From Balnearium lithotrophicum (GTDB lineage Bacteria > Aquificota > Aquificia > Desulfurobacteriales > Desulfurobacteriaceae): a stretch of DNA of 60,001 nt. The stretch spans positions 1 through 60,001 of the forward strand of contig NZ_FXTM01000010.1 of assembly GCF_900182585.1 (NCBI RefSeq). Direction: 5' to 3'. The notes under the pieces are model-generated. The model saw only the letters and a list, made by a program, of their open reading frames with translations, was not told where the DNA came from and did no database searches. Below are positions 14,966 to 51,547 of the stretch, piece after piece; position 1 is the first letter of the stretch; every line of letters starts with the position of its first letter. A program made the position numbers and the translations under genes.

Positions 14966-16216
14966 GGTAGTGTACGATATTTTGTGTAAGAAAGAGAAAT
15001 GGAGTAACCTCCTGGGGAATAACTCCGAAAAACCTAACCCCCCAGGAGGTAGAGATGAATCTTCCAGAGATTTTACCAGACCTTATTAAGGAAGTTGTAA
15101 AGCAAACGTTGGAAACCATCATGGTGGCAGAAAGAGAGGTGTTCATTAAAGAACACGGAGGAACGAAAAACGGGTTTTACGAGAGGAATCTGGATACGGC
15201 TCTTGGGAAGCTTGAAAACCTAAAAGTTCCAAGAGACAGAGAGGGAAGATTCAGAACGAAGCTGATAGAGCCGTACAAAAGAAGAGACATCAGCCTTGAG
15301 GACTTAATCCTCGGAATGTTTGCTTCAGGAATGAGTGCAAGGTCAGTAGCTCAAGCCCTTGAGAGCATATTTGAGCTTAAGTACTCCCCATCAACAATTA
15401 GTCAAATATCCCAAGTAACAGTAGAGGAGATAAACAAATGGAAGCAACGCAAACTTAAGAAGAGGTATGCAGTAATAATGCTTGACGGGATGTGGCTATC
15501 GGTCAGGAGGGACACAGTTGAGAAAGAAGTTGTTCTTTTCGTTCTCGGCATAGATAAGGAAGGATACAGAGAGATACTTGACTTTGATGTCAATCCGTCT
15601 GAGGGAGCCGAGAGCTGGTTGGAGATGATAAGAAGGCTTTATGAACGGGGAGTGAGAGAGGTTCTCCTTTTTGTAGCAGACGGAATTACCGGACTTGAGG
15701 AAAGGATAAAGGAGTACTTTCCGAAAGCTGACTTCCAGTCGTGCGTTGTTCACAAGGTCAGGAGCACTTTGAACAAAGTGAGAGCGAAGGACAGGAAGAA
15801 GATAGCAAAGGACTTGAAAAAGATATACCAGGTTTCTACAGAAGAAGAAGCTTTGAAAGGATTTGAGAAGTTTAAGAAGAAGTGGGAATCAAAGTATCCC
15901 AGAGTTGTGAAATCCTGGGAGCGGGAGATTTATAAACTCCTTACGTTTCTTAGGTATCCTGAGTCTGTGCAGAGAGTGATATATACAACGAACCTGATAG
16001 AGAGGACGATAAAGGAGATAAGAAAGAGGGTTAAGGTCATAGGAGCTTTACCGTCGGTCAGTTCTGTTGAAAAGTTTGTTTACTTAAGAGTAGCAATGCT
16101 TAACGATAGATGGTCTAACAGAGTGGTAAACGGCTTTCTGGAATCCAGAGAGGAGATTCAGGAGATGTTCCTCAGGAGATACTCCTAATGGCTTACACAA
16201 AATTATTGACACAACC
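14966..16216 (+). mobile_element. Complete IS256-family insertion sequence
   Basis: A 1251-bp element bounded by about 25-bp imperfect inverted repeats (left 14966-14990, right 16192-16216; both start GGT and contain ATTTTGTGTAAG at the inner end) and flanked by an 8-bp direct duplication. It holds one intact transposase gene. It appears complete and potentially active. Confidence 0.95.
15055..16188 (+). CDS. IS256 (Mutator)-family transposase
   Basis: A 377-residue DDE transposase. The catalytic Asp residues lie in VIMLDGMWLSV and LFVADGITGL, with the family C/H motif SCVVHKVR, and the Glu in the C-terminal TTNLIERTIKEIRKR. Length fits the family (about 380-420). A GGAGGT ribosome binding site lies just before the ATG. 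The gene is intact, and target duplications and terminal repeats are preserved, so the element may still move. Confidence 0.95.
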   Translation: MNLPEILPDLIKEVVKQTLETIMVAEREVFIKEHGGTKNGFYERNLDTALGKLENLKVPRDREGRFRTKLIEPYKRRDISLEDLILGMFASGMSARSVAQALESIFELKYSPSTISQISQVTVEEINKWKQRKLKKRYAVIMLDGMWLSVRRDTVEKEVVLFVLGIDKEGYREILDFDVNPSEGAESWLEMIRRLYERGVREVLLFVADGITGLEERIKEYFPKADFQSCVVHKVRSTLNKVRAKDRKKIAKDLKKIYQVSTEEEALKGFEKFKKKWESKYPRVVKSWEREIYKLLTFLRYPESVQRVIYTTNLIERTIKEIRKRVKVIGALPSVSSVEKFVYLRVAMLNDRWSNRVVNGFLESREEIQEMFLRRYS

Positions 16217-18079: not shown

Positions 18080-19135
18080 TCAGGTGTTCTCGTTCAATAC
18101 ATGGTGGACACCCTGGAGTTTTTTAATATATTCCTCAAACTTCTCTACTGGAGTCTTATAACCAAGACTTTGATGAGGCCTAACGAAGTTGTAAAAGCTT
18201 AGATACCTAAATAGCTTTCTGTTCATCTCATCAACTTTCGGCTCAGTTCCTTCTATCATCCACAATTCCTTCTCCACCGTCTGTATGAACCTTTCAACGT
18301 GTGCATTGGTCTTGGGAGACCTCGGATAGCTGAAGTAGTGTTCTATTCCTCTCTCCTTAAGGTAGTCCTCTAACTCTCCTATAAACTCACTTCCGTTGTC
18401 AGTTTGAACCTTTTCTATTTTGAAGGGAAGAAACTTTTCAAGTTCTTGGAAAAATCGTTTCCCACTCCTGCTGCTTTTTGTAGAATAAACCTTAGCAAAG
18501 CCTATTCTGGTGAATTTATCTATTGCTGTGAATTGGTAGAAGGTTTTTCCGCACCAGTAGAGGTATTTGACATCTATGAGGATTGTTCCGGGTTTATCGG
18601 CTCTAAGTCCTCTTCTGGTGCGGTTCTTTTTCCCTATTTGTTTTCTTTTCTTAAAGTTCCATGTGAGTTTTCTGGTTCTTTCTATCAGATTGTTTCTCTT
18701 TAAAACTCTGTAGATGGTTGAAGGAGAGACTTTTATGTTGAGGTATTTTTCTATAAAGACTGATATTTTTTCTTTGCTCCAGGTAGGGAATTTTTCCCTT
18801 ACTGTGATTATGAGGAATTCAAGTTCAGGTTCTATCTGAGGTTGTCTTACTCTGTGGGGTCTTTTGTTTCTGTCTTTGAGGCCTTCTAAACCGTACTTTT
18901 TGTATCTATTTTTCCACTTGTAGAAGGTGGTTGGACTTATTCCGAAGTATCTGCAGGTTAGTCTTGCATTTTGGTGTTTTTCGTAGTGTTGAATCCATTT
19001 AAGTCTTTTTCTCACGTTTGGGTCTTTTGTTAGGTCGAGTTTGGTTTTGATTTTTGTTCCTCTTTTGATTGTTTTTTTGAAGGGTGTATTTGATATGTGC
19101 AGGGATGCACCTTTGAATTTCTTTAATTGTTTCAT
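18080..19135 (-). CDS. IS481-family transposase (complete)
   Basis: A 351-residue DDE transposase. N-terminal helix-turn-helix regions (about 35-90, including CRYFGISPTTFYKW) are followed by an integrase core with catalytic Asp in TILIDVKYL, Asp in VQTDNGSEF and Glu in HVERF. The ATG at 19135 is chosen because AAGGAGGTG lies eight bases upstream. The stop codon TGA (18080-18082) lies outside the element, in flanking DNA. In copy 3 the frame also reads out of the element before stopping. The gene is intact. Confidence 0.93.
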   Translation of the reverse strand: MKQLKKFKGASLHISNTPFKKTIKRGTKIKTKLDLTKDPNVRKRLKWIQHYEKHQNARLTCRYFGISPTTFYKWKNRYKKYGLEGLKDRNKRPHRVRQPQIEPELEFLIITVREKFPTWSKEKISVFIEKYLNIKVSPSTIYRVLKRNNLIERTRKLTWNFKKRKQIGKKNRTRRGLRADKPGTILIDVKYLYWCGKTFYQFTAIDKFTRIGFAKVYSTKSSRSGKRFFQELEKFLPFKIEKVQTDNGSEFIGELEDYLKERGIEHYFSYPRSPKTNAHVERFIQTVEKELWMIEGTEPKVDEMNRKLFRYLSFYNFVRPHQSLGYKTPVEKFEEYIKKLQGVHHVLNENT

Positions 19136-19136
19136 T

Positions 19137-19187
19137 GGTGGACACCTCCTTTTGTTGGAGTTCAAATCTTATTTTAGGGTGTCCACC
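19137..19187 (-). promoter_or_regulatory. RNA hairpin that can hide the transposase ribosome binding site
   Basis: In minus-strand RNA, GGTGGACACC (from 19178-19187, in the terminal repeat) is perfectly complementary to GGTGTCCACC (from 19137-19146), which forms the 3' part of the AAGGAGGTG ribosome binding site. A 10-bp stem would block translation only in transcripts entering from outside. Copy 1 keeps both arms (345-354 and 304-313). Confidence 0.6.
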
Positions 19188-45072: not shown

Positions 45073-46626
45073 TTAAATTTCTCTTAAAGTTTCTAAAATT
45101 TTGGAAATTTGAAATTCTCTTATTAAAGGTTCTATTGGTAAACTTAAAACGCTCTGTGAAGCTAATTCACTATTTTTTAAACTTTCAGAAATTTCCATAC
45201 TGCTGTTTATAAATACTTTCATTTTATGCAATGGTATAGGATAGTAAACCATTGAGGATATGCCATTCTCCTTTAATTTTTTCTGTACATCATCTCTATT
45301 TCTATTTAATACTCTCACAGTATACTGGTGATAAACATGATGAGCTTTGGAATGTTCAAAGGGTATTTCAATCCAGTTTAAATCCTTTAATTTCTCACTG
45401 TAATTATTTGCTATTTTTCTTCGTCTTTTATTAAACTCATCTATATATTTAAACTTAGCAAGCAATATTGCAGCTTGAATTGTGTCAAGCCTTGCGTTAT
45501 AGCCTATATAATCAACATTGTATTTGTCTTTACCTCCGTGTTTCCTAAGCATTAAAAGGAGTTCGTAAAGTTCATCATCATTGGTGGTTACCATCCCTCC
45601 ATCGCCAAATCCACCTAAGTTCTTAGAAGGGAAAAAACTAAAACACCCCGTATCCCCAAAAGAGCCTGTCTGTTTACCGTCCCACCGAGCTCCAAAACTC
45701 TGAGCACAGTCTTCAACTACAAATAAATCGTTTTCTCTGGCAATTTTCATTATTTCGTCCATATTTGCAGGATGACCATACAAGTGAACAGGAATTATAC
45801 CCTTTACTTTCCTTCCGTATTTTTTAACCGCTTTTTCTATCAATTCTGGATCTATAGTGTAAGTTTCTAAGTCAATATCAACAAAAAGAGGGGTAGCTCC
45901 AGCTCTTAAAATAGCTTCTCCTGTTGCAGTAAACGTGAATGGAGTGGTTATTATAAGGTCTTCCTTATCCCAGAATTCTTTACCGGTATTTTTTATGGCG
46001 AGAGCTCTCAAAGATAAAACAAGGGCATCTGTTCCAGAAGATACTCCAACTGCATACTTTGTCCCTATATATTGAGCCACTTTTGTCTCAAGCTCTTTAA
46101 CTTCATCACCAAGAATATATTTTGCTTTAGACATGCACTTTAAAACGGCTTCATCAATTTTTTCCATCATAGACCTATATTCCATAGGTAAATCAAGCAT
46201 AGGCACAGTACCTGAAAATGAAGAAGATTCGAACAATTCCTTCTTTTTTAGAGCCTCATCTGGAGTTAAAACTGGCAACCCCATTGATGGAAAATCTTTG
46301 TCGTTTGAGATTATAATTCCATCGTTAGCAATTCTCTTAAAGCTCAGCACTATTAAAGCATCTTCACCGTCTTCAAAATCTAACGCCTTTGAAGCATCCA
46401 TACCTGAGGTTGTGACTATCTTGAATTTTGTTAGTAGCTCTTTTTTAAACTTTTTTTTATCAACTTTATACTTATTAAGAAAATAGTCCAACGTCGCTAC
46501 CATAGAAGAGGTTATAAACAGTTCATTATAGGAATTTACTAACCTATCAACTAATTCCTTACTAATTTTATTCCTGTTAAGTACTGCATCTAAAATTACA
46601 TTGATATCTACTAAAATTTTACTCAC
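45073..46626 (-). CDS. PIN nuclease domain fused to DegT-family aminotransferase (WbpE-like)
   Basis: A 517-residue single frame with two unrelated parts. Residues 1-125 form a PIN domain of VapC/PIN_3 type: Asp7 in LVDINV, acidic DFEDGEDA near 83-89, and SNDKD near 108-111. After a linker (126-140), a complete sugar aminotransferase starts at about 141 with VPMLDLPMEY and carries SSGTDALVLSL, EDCAQSFGA and the PLP lysine Lys335 in FFPSKNLGGFGDGG. The second part resembles WbpE, which makes UDP-GlcNAc3NA. A GTG at the join could start it alone, but no good ribosome binding site is near. The start overlaps the upstream antitoxin-like gene by 8 bp. Confidence 0.88.
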   Translation of the reverse strand: MSKILVDINVILDAVLNRNKISKELVDRLVNSYNELFITSSMVATLDYFLNKYKVDKKKFKKELLTKFKIVTTSGMDASKALDFEDGEDALIVLSFKRIANDGIIISNDKDFPSMGLPVLTPDEALKKKELFESSSFSGTVPMLDLPMEYRSMMEKIDEAVLKCMSKAKYILGDEVKELETKVAQYIGTKYAVGVSSGTDALVLSLRALAIKNTGKEFWDKEDLIITTPFTFTATGEAILRAGATPLFVDIDLETYTIDPELIEKAVKKYGRKVKGIIPVHLYGHPANMDEIMKIARENDLFVVEDCAQSFGARWDGKQTGSFGDTGCFSFFPSKNLGGFGDGGMVTTNDDELYELLLMLRKHGGKDKYNVDYIGYNARLDTIQAAILLAKFKYIDEFNKRRRKIANNYSEKLKDLNWIEIPFEHSKAHHVYHQYTVRVLNRNRDDVQKKLKENGISSMVYYPIPLHKMKVFINSSMEISESLKNSELASQSVLSLPIEPLIREFQISKILETLREI

Positions 46627-46843
46627 CGTATTTCTCCTCCAAATGTTTATACCACTCTTCCTTAAAGTTAACTTTAGAAAGTGGAAATTCTCCTACAGTT
46701 TCTCTTAGTTTCTCAACAAATGATTCCATATTTGTAGTGGGAATTACTTCTTTTACTATTATCCCTTCATCGCGGAATAATGATAAAATACGCAAAATTT
46801 TCTTTCCGATGTCTCTATCTTTAACTTCTATCACTATTTGCAT
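46619..46843 (-). CDS. Antitoxin-like protein upstream of the PIN fusion
   Basis: A 74-residue protein opening MQIVIEVKDRDIGKKIL and ending NFKEEWYKHLEEKYGE. The short N-terminal strand-helix followed by an acidic, aromatic tail is the usual form of antitoxins paired with PIN toxins. A strong ribosome binding site AGGAGGTGA lies seven bases before the ATG. It overlaps the PIN fusion start by 8 bp, as in type II modules. I recognise the arrangement rather than a named family. Confidence 0.62.
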   Translation of the reverse strand: MQIVIEVKDRDIGKKILRILSLFRDEGIIVKEVIPTTNMESFVEKLRETVGEFPLSKVNFKEEWYKHLEEKYGE

Positions 46844-46921
46844 AACTAATCACCTCCTGTCTAAGTAATATTTTTTACTTTTAACTCCCTTCTTTTCATT
46901 TACCTTTAAAAAATTATGTTG

Positions 46922-47107
46922 TTATCTTTGTTCATATTTACTTCTGAGCACATATTCCAATGCCTCCTCATCGGTCAAATTAGATATATTTTCCCTTCCT
47001 CCGTAAATTTCACTTAAATACTGCAAAAACTCGGTTAGCGGTTCCTTTTCAGTCTTATCCTTGATCTCAACTTCCATTTCTTGTTTGTTTTCTAAACCTT
47101 TTAACAT
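46922..47107 (-). CDS. Small acidic protein, unknown
   Basis: A 61-residue frame with EFLQYLSEIYGG and LTDEEALEYVLRSKYEQR, mostly helical and acidic. It could be another antitoxin-like remnant, being next to the PIN module, but there is no clear ribosome binding site and I do not recognise a family. Gaps of 78 bp (to 46843) and 67 bp (to the acetyltransferase) surround it and show no further gene. Confidence 0.35.
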   Translation of the reverse strand: MLKGLENKQEMEVEIKDKTEKEPLTEFLQYLSEIYGGRENISNLTDEEALEYVLRSKYEQR

Positions 47108-47174
47108 CGGAATTAGAAATCCATTCTCTACTCTTTTAGCCTTAATTCTCCTACTTTTCCTCTATAACACTTTT

Positions 47175-50069
<2,895 letters not shown>

Positions 50070-50086: not shown

Positions 50087-50542
50087 TTAACAGTAATTCA
50101 TTTTTTCTGTGTATTCATTAATTTTTTTGATAGTGTCAATTAATATCGGCACTTTTTCAAGAACTTCCTTAAATTCTTCGATTAAATTTTCTTGGATGTA
50201 TTCATGAGCTAATTCGTTTCTTAAATCTTTCAATTCTATCAGCAGTTTGTAGTCATCTACGAAGCCTCTTTTTTCTGCTCTTATTACAACATCCGGTTTT
50301 CTACCTACATCTTCTAATTCCAGTAAATCCAAACTCCTTAAAACCCTGTTAATAAACATATCTATAGTTCTACCAAACCCATTTGATAGCGTTTCCAAAA
50401 TTTCTAATTCACTTTCTGTTAACCCCTTTTTTGAAAAATCTATGTTCTGAGCTTTTCTATAAGACTTCAACAACCAATCCAGATTTTTATTTAGAAGTTT
50501 TAAATTTTCACAGAAAATTGCCTTTCTCTCCTCAAAAGTCAT
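50087..50542 (-). CDS. HepT-like HEPN ribonuclease toxin
   Basis: A 151-residue helical HEPN (DUF86-type) protein. The active-site motif R-x4-H-x-Y is present as RNELAHEY near 122-129. HepT proteins cleave RNA, and their tyrosine is AMPylated by the partner MntA. It overlaps the upstream nucleotidyltransferase by 4 bp, giving a complete MntA-HepT pair. A second, related pair lies immediately upstream. Confidence 0.83.
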   Translation of the reverse strand: MTFEERKAIFCENLKLLNKNLDWLLKSYRKAQNIDFSKKGLTESELEILETLSNGFGRTIDMFINRVLRSLDLLELEDVGRKPDVVIRAEKRGFVDDYKLLIELKDLRNELAHEYIQENLIEEFKEVLEKVPILIDTIKKINEYTEKMNYC

Positions 50543-50841
50543 ATCTTAACTCCATATTTATAAGCTACTTTTGTAAACTCTGTCTTTTCTGGATTATCAG
50601 TCACTATCAAATCTATCTTTCTATTGCCCAATGAAAGCTGTAAATCAACTCTTATTTTTCTCCTGATTCTGTAGTCTATATCTTTTGATATTATCAAGAT
50701 ATCAATATCCCCACCTTTTTTTGTTAAATCTGTCCTACTTCCAAATATTAGTATTTCAGCCTGTGGATCATACTTTGTTATTATATCCTTTATTGTCCTT
50801 ATTTCTTCCTGAGATAGCCTGATTTTTTCCTTGTTTTCCAT
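50539..50841 (-). CDS. MntA-like nucleotidyltransferase antitoxin, first
   Basis: A 100-residue minimal nucleotidyltransferase. The motif GS-x9-DxD is seen as GSRTDLTKKGGDID near 37-50, and a later DLIV supplies the third acidic residue. MntA neutralises HepT by adding AMP to its tyrosine. It overlaps HepT by 4 bp, and its start touches the end of the upstream HI0074-like gene, so all four genes form one unit. Confidence 0.83.
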   Translation of the reverse strand: MENKEKIRLSQEEIRTIKDIITKYDPQAEILIFGSRTDLTKKGGDIDILIISKDIDYRIRRKIRVDLQLSLGNRKIDLIVTDNPEKTEFTKVAYKYGVKI

Positions 50842-51239
50842 TATTTCCTTAATCTTTCAAGGACTTTTTTAAGCTGAATTATATACGTATTCAACTTAGA
50901 AAACAACTGTTCGGCAACTTCTTCTCTGTAGGTGTGGGAGGTTAAGTTTCTATCGTCTATCATTTTAAGGAACGTAATGGCTTCTCCTTCCGTTAGATAA
51001 CCTAAGGAGAAGAATTCTCTTACGCAGGATTTGGGACTTCTGCATTCAATCCCCTCTTTTTCTCTTAAATAGGTTTTAATACATTTCCAAAATATCTCAA
51101 CGGTAAATTCAAATCTTTGGATGGCACTATCCCTGAAAAAAGGATAGTCGCTTTCGTTTGAATTCCTTGCTCTTAAATAAGCTTCTTCTAATCTTTCTAA
51201 CGCTTTTTCAAAGTCTTTTACTAATTTTTCTAAAGCCAT
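50841..51239 (-). CDS. HI0074-type HEPN protein (nucleotidyltransferase partner)
   Basis: A 132-residue all-helical protein. QRFEFTVEIFWKCIKTYL is the hallmark of the HI0074 family, which pairs with small nucleotidyltransferases. A HEPN-type R-x4-H-x-Y motif RNLTSHTY lies near 97-104, so RNase activity is possible. It overlaps the upstream nucleotidyltransferase by 10 bp. Confidence 0.83.
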   Translation of the reverse strand: MALEKLVKDFEKALERLEEAYLRARNSNESDYPFFRDSAIQRFEFTVEIFWKCIKTYLREKEGIECRSPKSCVREFFSLGYLTEGEAITFLKMIDDRNLTSHTYREEVAEQLFSKLNTYIIQLKKVLERLRK

Positions 51240-51547
51240 CTCTTCCCTTCTTTTAGGGCAATTTTTAGGAGCTCCCCGTTTGACGAAAGGTCCACCAAGT
51301 CAACCTTGTATGGAAAGTTACTCTCCTCAAGAACTTCTCTTAAGAGAACCAATTTATCCGAAATATCGTGGTCTGCCAAGAAACCAATATCCACATCAGA
51401 AAATGGCGTATTGTCTTCTCTTGCCCTTGAACCGAACAGATAGATGTTCACCTGTTCATTTTTGAAAAATTCCTTTAGAAACCTCTTTAAATCTTCAATG
51501 GTCTCCAATCTTAAATTTTTAAGATTCTCCTTAATTTCAAATTTCAC
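51230..51547 (-). CDS. MntA-like nucleotidyltransferase, second
   Basis: A 105-residue minimal nucleotidyltransferase with GS-x10-DxD (GSRAREDNTPFSDVD near 39-53) and a later VDLVDL strand with the third acidic residue. It is partner to the HI0074-like gene. It is the first gene of the four-gene unit; an 80-bp gap upstream separates it from the divergent permease. Confidence 0.83.
   Translation of the reverse strand: MKFEIKENLKNLRLETIEDLKRFLKEFFKNEQVNIYLFGSRAREDNTPFSDVDIGFLADHDISDKLVLLREVLEESNFPYKVDLVDLSSNGELLKIALKEGKRWL

Follow-up and report, generated by a model that had tools for sequence, protein, structure and literature searches.

An in-frame fusion of a PIN domain to a WbpE-type sugar aminotransferase, with signs of cassette exchange, in Balnearium lithotrophicum and related bacteria

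The window analyzed here is a 60,001-nucleotide stretch of Balnearium lithotrophicum DNA (contig NZ_FXTM01000010.1, positions 1 to 60,001), and its subject is a gene at positions 45073–46626 in which a toxin-like PIN domain is joined in frame to a WbpE-type sugar aminotransferase. The gene, like the other features of this locus, lies on the minus strand; it begins with GTG and forms a single open reading frame (ORF) of 517 residues with no internal stop. Pfam assigns residues 3–93 to PIN_3 (PF13470; 28.5 bits, cut-off 27) and residues 154–514 to DegT (PF01041; 389 bits), and the fused frame described in the original prediction, which was made from the sequence alone, is thus real. The PIN domain and linker (residues 1–139, positions 46210–46626) carry their acidic residues where that prediction had put them: Asp7 (codon 46606–46608), the Asp86/Glu88/Asp89 cluster of a D-x-E-D motif (Asp86 codon, 46369–46371), and Asp109. 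An AlphaFold2 (AF2) model of the full fusion had a predicted local distance difference test score (pLDDT) of 80.7, with block means of 53–82 in the PIN part, and its residues 1–110 form strands and helices in PIN-like order. The aminotransferase domain (residues 141–517) occupies positions 45076–46206. Its Lys335 (codon 45622–45624), proposed earlier as the pyridoxal phosphate (PLP) lysine, does line up with Lys185 of WbpE, as counted by hand on the alignment.

Upstream of the fusion lies an antitoxin-like gene of 74 amino acids (positions 46619–46843), which shares 8 nt with the start of the fusion gene and is preceded by AGGAGGTGA (46850–46858), its likely ribosome-binding site; both had been recognized before. 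The tail of the 74-aa protein resembles DUF6364 (PF19891) only weakly (15.2 bits, E 0.03, below the cut-off of 27.3), and none of 60 relatives held a match to the protein at E ≤ 0.001. A scan for promoters and terminators around this gene was uninformative, giving five promoter-like sites over both strands, where 2.8 were expected (SD 1.6), and no terminator. Beyond the antitoxin, positions 46922–47152 hold the relic of a second antitoxin, discussed below, followed by a WbpD-type hexapeptide acetyltransferase ORF (47175–47843), a WbpB-type Gfo/Idh/MocA oxidoreductase (47788–48750), and a WbpA/TviB-type nucleotide-sugar dehydrogenase (48750–50069).

In a structure comparison of the enzyme half, the closest solved relative was the Archaeoglobus transaminase 7b0d (46% identity, Z 48.7). 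WbpE of Pseudomonas aeruginosa was matched at about 40% identity over 358 residues (Z about 45), and the matched entries included the structure of its K185A variant; the VIA-align comparison with the full window model covers the enzyme half only. NCBIfam gave no equivalog above cut-off for the aminotransferase. Given the WbpD-, WbpB-, and WbpA-type genes upstream, the enzyme half probably acts as the 3-aminotransferase in a UDP-amino-uronate (UDP, uridine diphosphate) pathway, its substrate being read from this gene context.

The same fusion recurs. A search of related genomes, which had been suggested together with the original prediction, yielded 12 distinct fused genes: those of the window, G009, G055, G006, G056, G027, G125, G126, S141, G100, and G127, and that of a second locus of G126, whose 3′ end is cut. 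In the window's phylum, 11 of 136 genomes matched at E ≤ 1e-100 and 10 hold the full-length fusion; the gene of G106, cut by a contig end and lacking its 5′ end, was excluded from the set, as was a fragment in G097. The gene order wbpB-wbpD-[antitoxin]-PIN::wbpE is kept in 11 of the 12, and the contig of S141 starts inside wbpD, so that the operon order is the same as far as the contigs reach. The recurrence of this join in 12 genes rules out an assembly error, once a possible objection. Among contigs of a wider range of genomes, 80 loci were kept out of 578 relatives. Two are fused (L044, which we count with G100 as one gene, and L045) and 78 unfused, every one of the latter having at most 43 residues between the first start codon and the enzyme. 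No fused locus falls below 62% enzyme identity to the window, and none of the unfused loci measured exceeds 59.6%.

The distribution is patchy, since the fusion is absent from all five other genomes of the window's genus, two of them 83–87% complete. In an enzyme tree of 45 rows, 11 fused rows form one clade (support 99/96), and G127 groups weakly (88/77) with six unfused rows. Because that placement is weak and a single fused clade was not rejected by the approximately unbiased (AU) test (p 0.386), the fusion may have arisen once or twice. Two observations concern the assemblies themselves. Locus L045 (JALTZZ010000025.1) was binned as “archaeon,” yet its 103-aa antitoxin ORF is identical to that in G097 (L199) of the window's phylum, and the contig is therefore most likely misbinned. 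Genome G126 contains two different wbp loci, one with a C and one with a D cassette (types defined below) on contigs C17 (L136) and C91 (L137), either from mixed strains or by true duplication.

Unfused relatives show the site without the cassette. In 7 of 11 (L047–L052, L056), the preceding ORF stops within 4 nt of the wbpE start; it is a visible acetyltransferase in L047, L048, and L056 and, judged from its beginning, a long Gfo/Idh-type ORF in L049–L052. The remaining four (L046, L053, L009, L010) have another upstream arrangement. As read from these empty sites, the cassette lies between wbpD and wbpE, its toxin frame entering the enzyme just ahead of the PMLDL motif.

The PIN half is conserved. 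Residues D7, N9, D13, D86, E88, and D89 are invariant in all 17 PIN sequences compared (12 fused and 5 free), and the fourth acid is kept in 11 of the 12 fused proteins. In five pairs of fused genes, the ratio of nonsynonymous to synonymous substitution rates (dN/dS) of the PIN part was 0.06 (G056/S141), 0.13 (G006/G125), 0.17 (G100/G127), 0.14 (G100 and the second locus of G126), and 0.25 (G009/G055); the enzyme part of the same pairs gave 0.11, 0.08, 0.16, 0.10, and, for G009/G055, no estimate. Judged by these rates and residues, purifying selection acts on the PIN half, whose main acids are retained. Other PIN parts tried (types B, C, and D, below) fall under the Pfam cut-off by sequence; a model of a D-type PIN part (pLDDT 89.6) had PIN-domain and VapC entries of the PDB as its best Foldseek rows (E 3.5e-4 and up). 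We infer that the PIN part is a toxic ribonuclease (RNase). A separate observation is that in the near-identical genes of G125 and G126 the enzyme part has a dN/dS of 0.75, above that of the PIN part (0.34); the differences are few, and sequencing error or relaxed selection is possible.

By sequence identity, four types of fused PIN domain can be told apart: the window holds type A; G009 and G055 hold type B; G006, G056, G027, G125, G126, and S141 hold type C; and G100, G127, and the second locus of G126 hold type D. Members of type C, and likewise those of type D, share 57–96% identity; the two B members share 41%, and different types share 22–38%. Free relatives of the type A PIN occur in the phylum at 31–37% identity, and those of type B are more distant (19–27%). 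No free relatives of types C and D came up at E ≤ 1e-5 in the 136 phylum genomes; apart from a 22-residue piece at a contig end (G097), all matches were to fused genes. A tree grouped all fused PINs against the five free ones (98/98), with a warning of long branches attached.

These types do not follow the enzymes to which they are attached. G009 (type B) and G006 (type C) are sisters in the enzyme tree (100/99), and their enzymes are 86% identical and their PIN parts 30%. Compared as DNA in 90-nt windows, the two loci are mostly 74–92% identical in wbpB, wbpD, and the enzyme and 64–70% at both ends and the right edge, and identity falls to 33–50% over one stretch of about 1 kb that comprises the antitoxin, the PIN part, and the first ∼30 enzyme codons. 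The two loci of G126 show the same island with softer edges (67–95% outside, 40–60% inside). G055 and G100 are mostly 72–88% identical outside, except where a gapped stretch separates wbpB and wbpD, and at most 53% inside. The first ∼28 enzyme residues (in the window, residues 141–168, positions 46123–46206) travel with the PIN type, grouping as A/B and C/D, unlike the remaining enzyme. AU tests rejected a type C clade (p 2e-4) and a type B clade (p 9e-9) on the enzyme data and a grouping of G009 with G006 (p 5e-7) on the PIN data. On the enzyme tree, the type label changes six times among 12 rows, the minimum possible being three. The antitoxin, the PIN part, and the first ∼30 enzyme codons thus have, by these comparisons, a history distinct from that of the rest of the enzyme and the flanks. 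Whole cassettes appear to have been exchanged in place, by recombination within the conserved flanks, and the donors were probably already fused, because the exchanged piece includes enzyme codons.

The upstream genes tell a related story. A small gene overlaps the fusion start by 1–29 nt in all 12 cases, which suggests coupled translation of antitoxin and fusion. Scored against shuffled sequences, antitoxin tails of the same type (B, C, or D) align with Z values of 13–55 and tails of different types with no more than 5, so that in these three types the tail, by alignment, tracks the PIN type. The heads have been shuffled independently of the tails: the head of the window antitoxin matches the C-type heads of G006 and G125 (Z 6–11), and the C-type antitoxins of G056, G027, and S141 have a D head (Z about 17–25). 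The type B partner is an unrelated protein of 162 aa. The free type A relatives (L147, L148, L150, L027, L151) are five ordinary antitoxin–toxin pairs whose genes overlap by 4 nt. Of their upstream proteins, that of L148 belongs to DUF6364, and the remaining four align with it; the upstream protein of the free pair in G009 scores 82.4 bits against this family.

Two loci retain an antitoxin of a type other than their own. G055 has an intact 71-aa D-type antitoxin ahead of its B cassette, and its DNA is 80–93% identical to that of G100 up to the end of this gene, after which identity falls to 40%. The counterpart in the window is a 61-aa ORF (46922–47107) similar to the D-type antitoxin of G100 (E 1e-13). 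Codons upstream of it in the same frame, RRIKAKRVENGFLIPM, extend the match into the antitoxin head, with AGG where G100 has ATG. Both copies stand without a D-type PIN; that of the window reads as a relic that has lost its start codon, that of G055 as an intact gene. On this evidence, a D-type antitoxin was formerly present at, or recombined into, both sites, and presumably a D-type PIN was also once there. Neither this relic nor the conservation of the fusion nor the swapping of cassettes had been part of the original prediction.

Searches for a mobile origin of the cassettes gave no support. The C-type PIN, the type covered by these searches, had no match in phages or plasmids, and the 162-aa B antitoxin had none in plasmids. 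In plasmids, 1048 records match the fusion and none covers 80% of it; nine aminotransferase relatives on viral contigs match only outside the PIN part.

Taken together, we consider it fairly probable that a type II toxin–antitoxin cassette occupies the junction of wbpD and wbpE in a UDP-amino-sugar operon, is fused to the enzyme, and is replaced in place by rival cassettes. The PIN part would be an RNase, harmful unless the coupled upstream antitoxin is made. With the toxin as the N-terminal half, a frameshift, stop, or promoter loss that silenced the toxin would also abolish the enzyme, so that the usual route of toxin-gene decay would be closed and the glycan locus and the cassette would shield each other; the fusion may persist because truncating the toxin would cost the enzyme. 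Exchange of whole cassettes would proceed by recombination in the conserved flanks, and a retained old antitoxin would let the recombinant survive it. The core of what had been proposed, the capture of a glycan-pathway step by a toxin–antitoxin module, is supported by the 12 overlapping small genes and by the tails that track types B, C, and D; either of the roles offered with it, a maintenance device for the cluster or antitoxin autoregulation of the enzyme, may apply, with the repeated cassette exchange leaning toward addiction.

A bolder version, which we put forward only tentatively, is that a toxin welded to an enzyme acts as a lock on a surface-glycan locus. The toxin could not be deleted, the locus would be addictive, replacement of the glycan cluster would be punished, and the lock would be changed by cassette exchange, with the old antitoxin as transitional immunity.

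Several observations weigh against the proposal of an exchanged toxin–antitoxin cassette. In G126 and in all five free relatives, Asn replaces the fourth acid, and the second-motif acid is missing in types B and D, in G125/G126, and in the five free relatives. The PIN dN/dS values of 0.06–0.25 come from five pairs that all have dS above 1; a sixth pair (G006/S141) is saturated, and the value of 0.34 for G125/G126 rests on 10 differences. The window antitoxin tail matches the DUF6364 tails of the free type A relatives weakly (Z 2.4–2.7; BLASTP, 11 residues) and scores higher to one D tail (Z 5). The window is moreover the sole type A fusion and hence has no fused sister cassette in which antitoxin and PIN might co-vary. 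NCBIfam and PADLOC gave no family name to the antitoxins tried. The AU p-values for the cassette types presuppose groups named beforehand, whereas ours were named after the identities had been seen. Finally, an orphan antitoxin was found in two loci only, the window and G055, and none was seen in G009 or G006.

The strongest of the rival explanations, although we think it unlikely, is that the PIN part is a built-in regulator that cuts or binds the operon's own messenger RNA, with the small upstream protein as modulator, so that the fusion tunes enzyme level without poisoning the cell. That the PIN domain is fused and co-translated within a biosynthetic operon fits this idea, as does a sub-threshold AF2212-like match of one antitoxin head (E 0.12). 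However, a fixed target would be unlikely to tolerate PIN types only 22–38% identical with type-matched partner tails, and the five free type A relatives, with their 4-nt overlaps, are ordinary antitoxin–toxin pairs. Since divergent PIN types turn over together with matching antitoxin tails while the fusion stays, the repeated exchange speaks for an addictive toxin over one fixed regulatory use.

The succession of cassettes, with orphan antitoxins usable as immunity to an old toxin, is equally what would be expected of a purely selfish cassette that landed in frame at the wbpE start and became fixed because it could not be removed, with no gain for the cell or the glycan locus. This explanation, to which we assign a low probability, differs from the exchanged cassette proposed above only in the beneficiary. 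The two are inseparable by sequence, and retention of the fusion in three families (f1, f3, f4) at low dN/dS suits both.

In a considerably more doubtful reading, the fusion is an anti-phage abortive infection system: its enzyme half would detect that a phage has altered the surface-glycan pathway, and its PIN half would kill. Phages commonly use surface glycans as receptors, and conflict systems typically diversify their toxin part. Against this, PADLOC returned no relevant match for the seven proteins tried, the nine relatives on viral contigs match only outside the PIN part, and the enzyme half is conserved as in an ordinary enzyme.

The least probable reading of all, kept open originally, is that a deletion fused the two parts by chance and left the PIN domain dead, or that the PIN part is untranslated and the enzyme starts at the join. 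It can draw on two codons that the window has at the join, GTG for residue 141 and ATG for residue 143, on a Met codon ahead of the LDL motif in 11 of the 12 fused genes, and on a Shine-Dalgarno-like match at the codon nearest that motif in the window (4 nt), G100, and S141 (5 nt each). It is contradicted by 12 in-frame fused genes with invariant acids and low PIN dN/dS, by a match of at most 3 nt in the nine other genes, and by the Met, which belongs to a PMLDL motif also present in several unfused enzymes, there downstream of the start codon. No conserved internal start is therefore seen at the join, and internal initiation may occur in a single genome.

The fusion shares its PIN acids and its small upstream gene with VapBC and PIN_3-type type II modules such as the five free pairs, but here a metabolic enzyme of 517 residues has the toxin as its N-terminal part, and the 74-aa partner in the window has a different head from the free-pair antitoxins and only a weak match to their tails. 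Like WbpE and the DegT/DnrJ/EryC1/StrS sugar aminotransferases, it contains a whole PLP enzyme next to WbpA-, WbpB-, and WbpD-type genes; unlike WbpE, it has ∼140 additional N-terminal residues that form the PIN domain, which the 78 unfused relatives lack. Polymorphic toxin/immunity loci also exchange cassettes and likewise combine a variable toxin and matching immunity with a constant part, whereas the constant part here is a metabolic enzyme.

In the literature seen, where absence is no proof, neither a DegT enzyme with a PIN toxin attached nor cassette exchange of this kind was described. PMC2701414 lists the aminotransferase family pfam00155 among toxin-adjacent genes, within larger conserved gene associations; this is adjacency, not fusion. 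The passages of PMC5379612 and PMC10853773 examined describe no such fusion.

Why chromosomal toxin–antitoxin systems persist is a long-standing question, as toxin genes should decay by simple loss-of-function mutations. The natural series described here suggests one way out, in that a toxin fused ahead of an enzyme cannot be cheaply truncated, and a succession of cassettes with leftover antitoxins is the pattern expected if such toxins bite. If the toxin does act as a lock on the glycan locus, its evolutionary stability would have been bought by covalent fusion to a needed enzyme. Both points, the truncation-proof fusion and the succession of cassettes, are testable with the genes of these bacteria.

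Other elements lie in or near these glycan clusters. At L044 (1349–4039), a Hydrogenothermus metagenome-assembled genome, the WbpA-type dehydrogenase is an 896-aa ORF with a probable intein past the GGHC motif (Intein_splicing, 58 bits; LAGLIDADG_3, 60 bits). In the window, two consecutive toxin–antitoxin-like gene pairs stand beside the glycan cluster, directly upstream of wbpA (50087–51547, minus strand): a nucleotidyltransferase (51230–51547) with an NTase_sub_bind protein (50841–51239), and a second nucleotidyltransferase (50539–50841) with a 151-aa protein that has no Pfam match (50087–50542). Ahead of the first glycan genes, the window also contains a Mutator-family transposase (15055–16188, plus strand) and an IS481-like integrase (18080–19165, minus strand).
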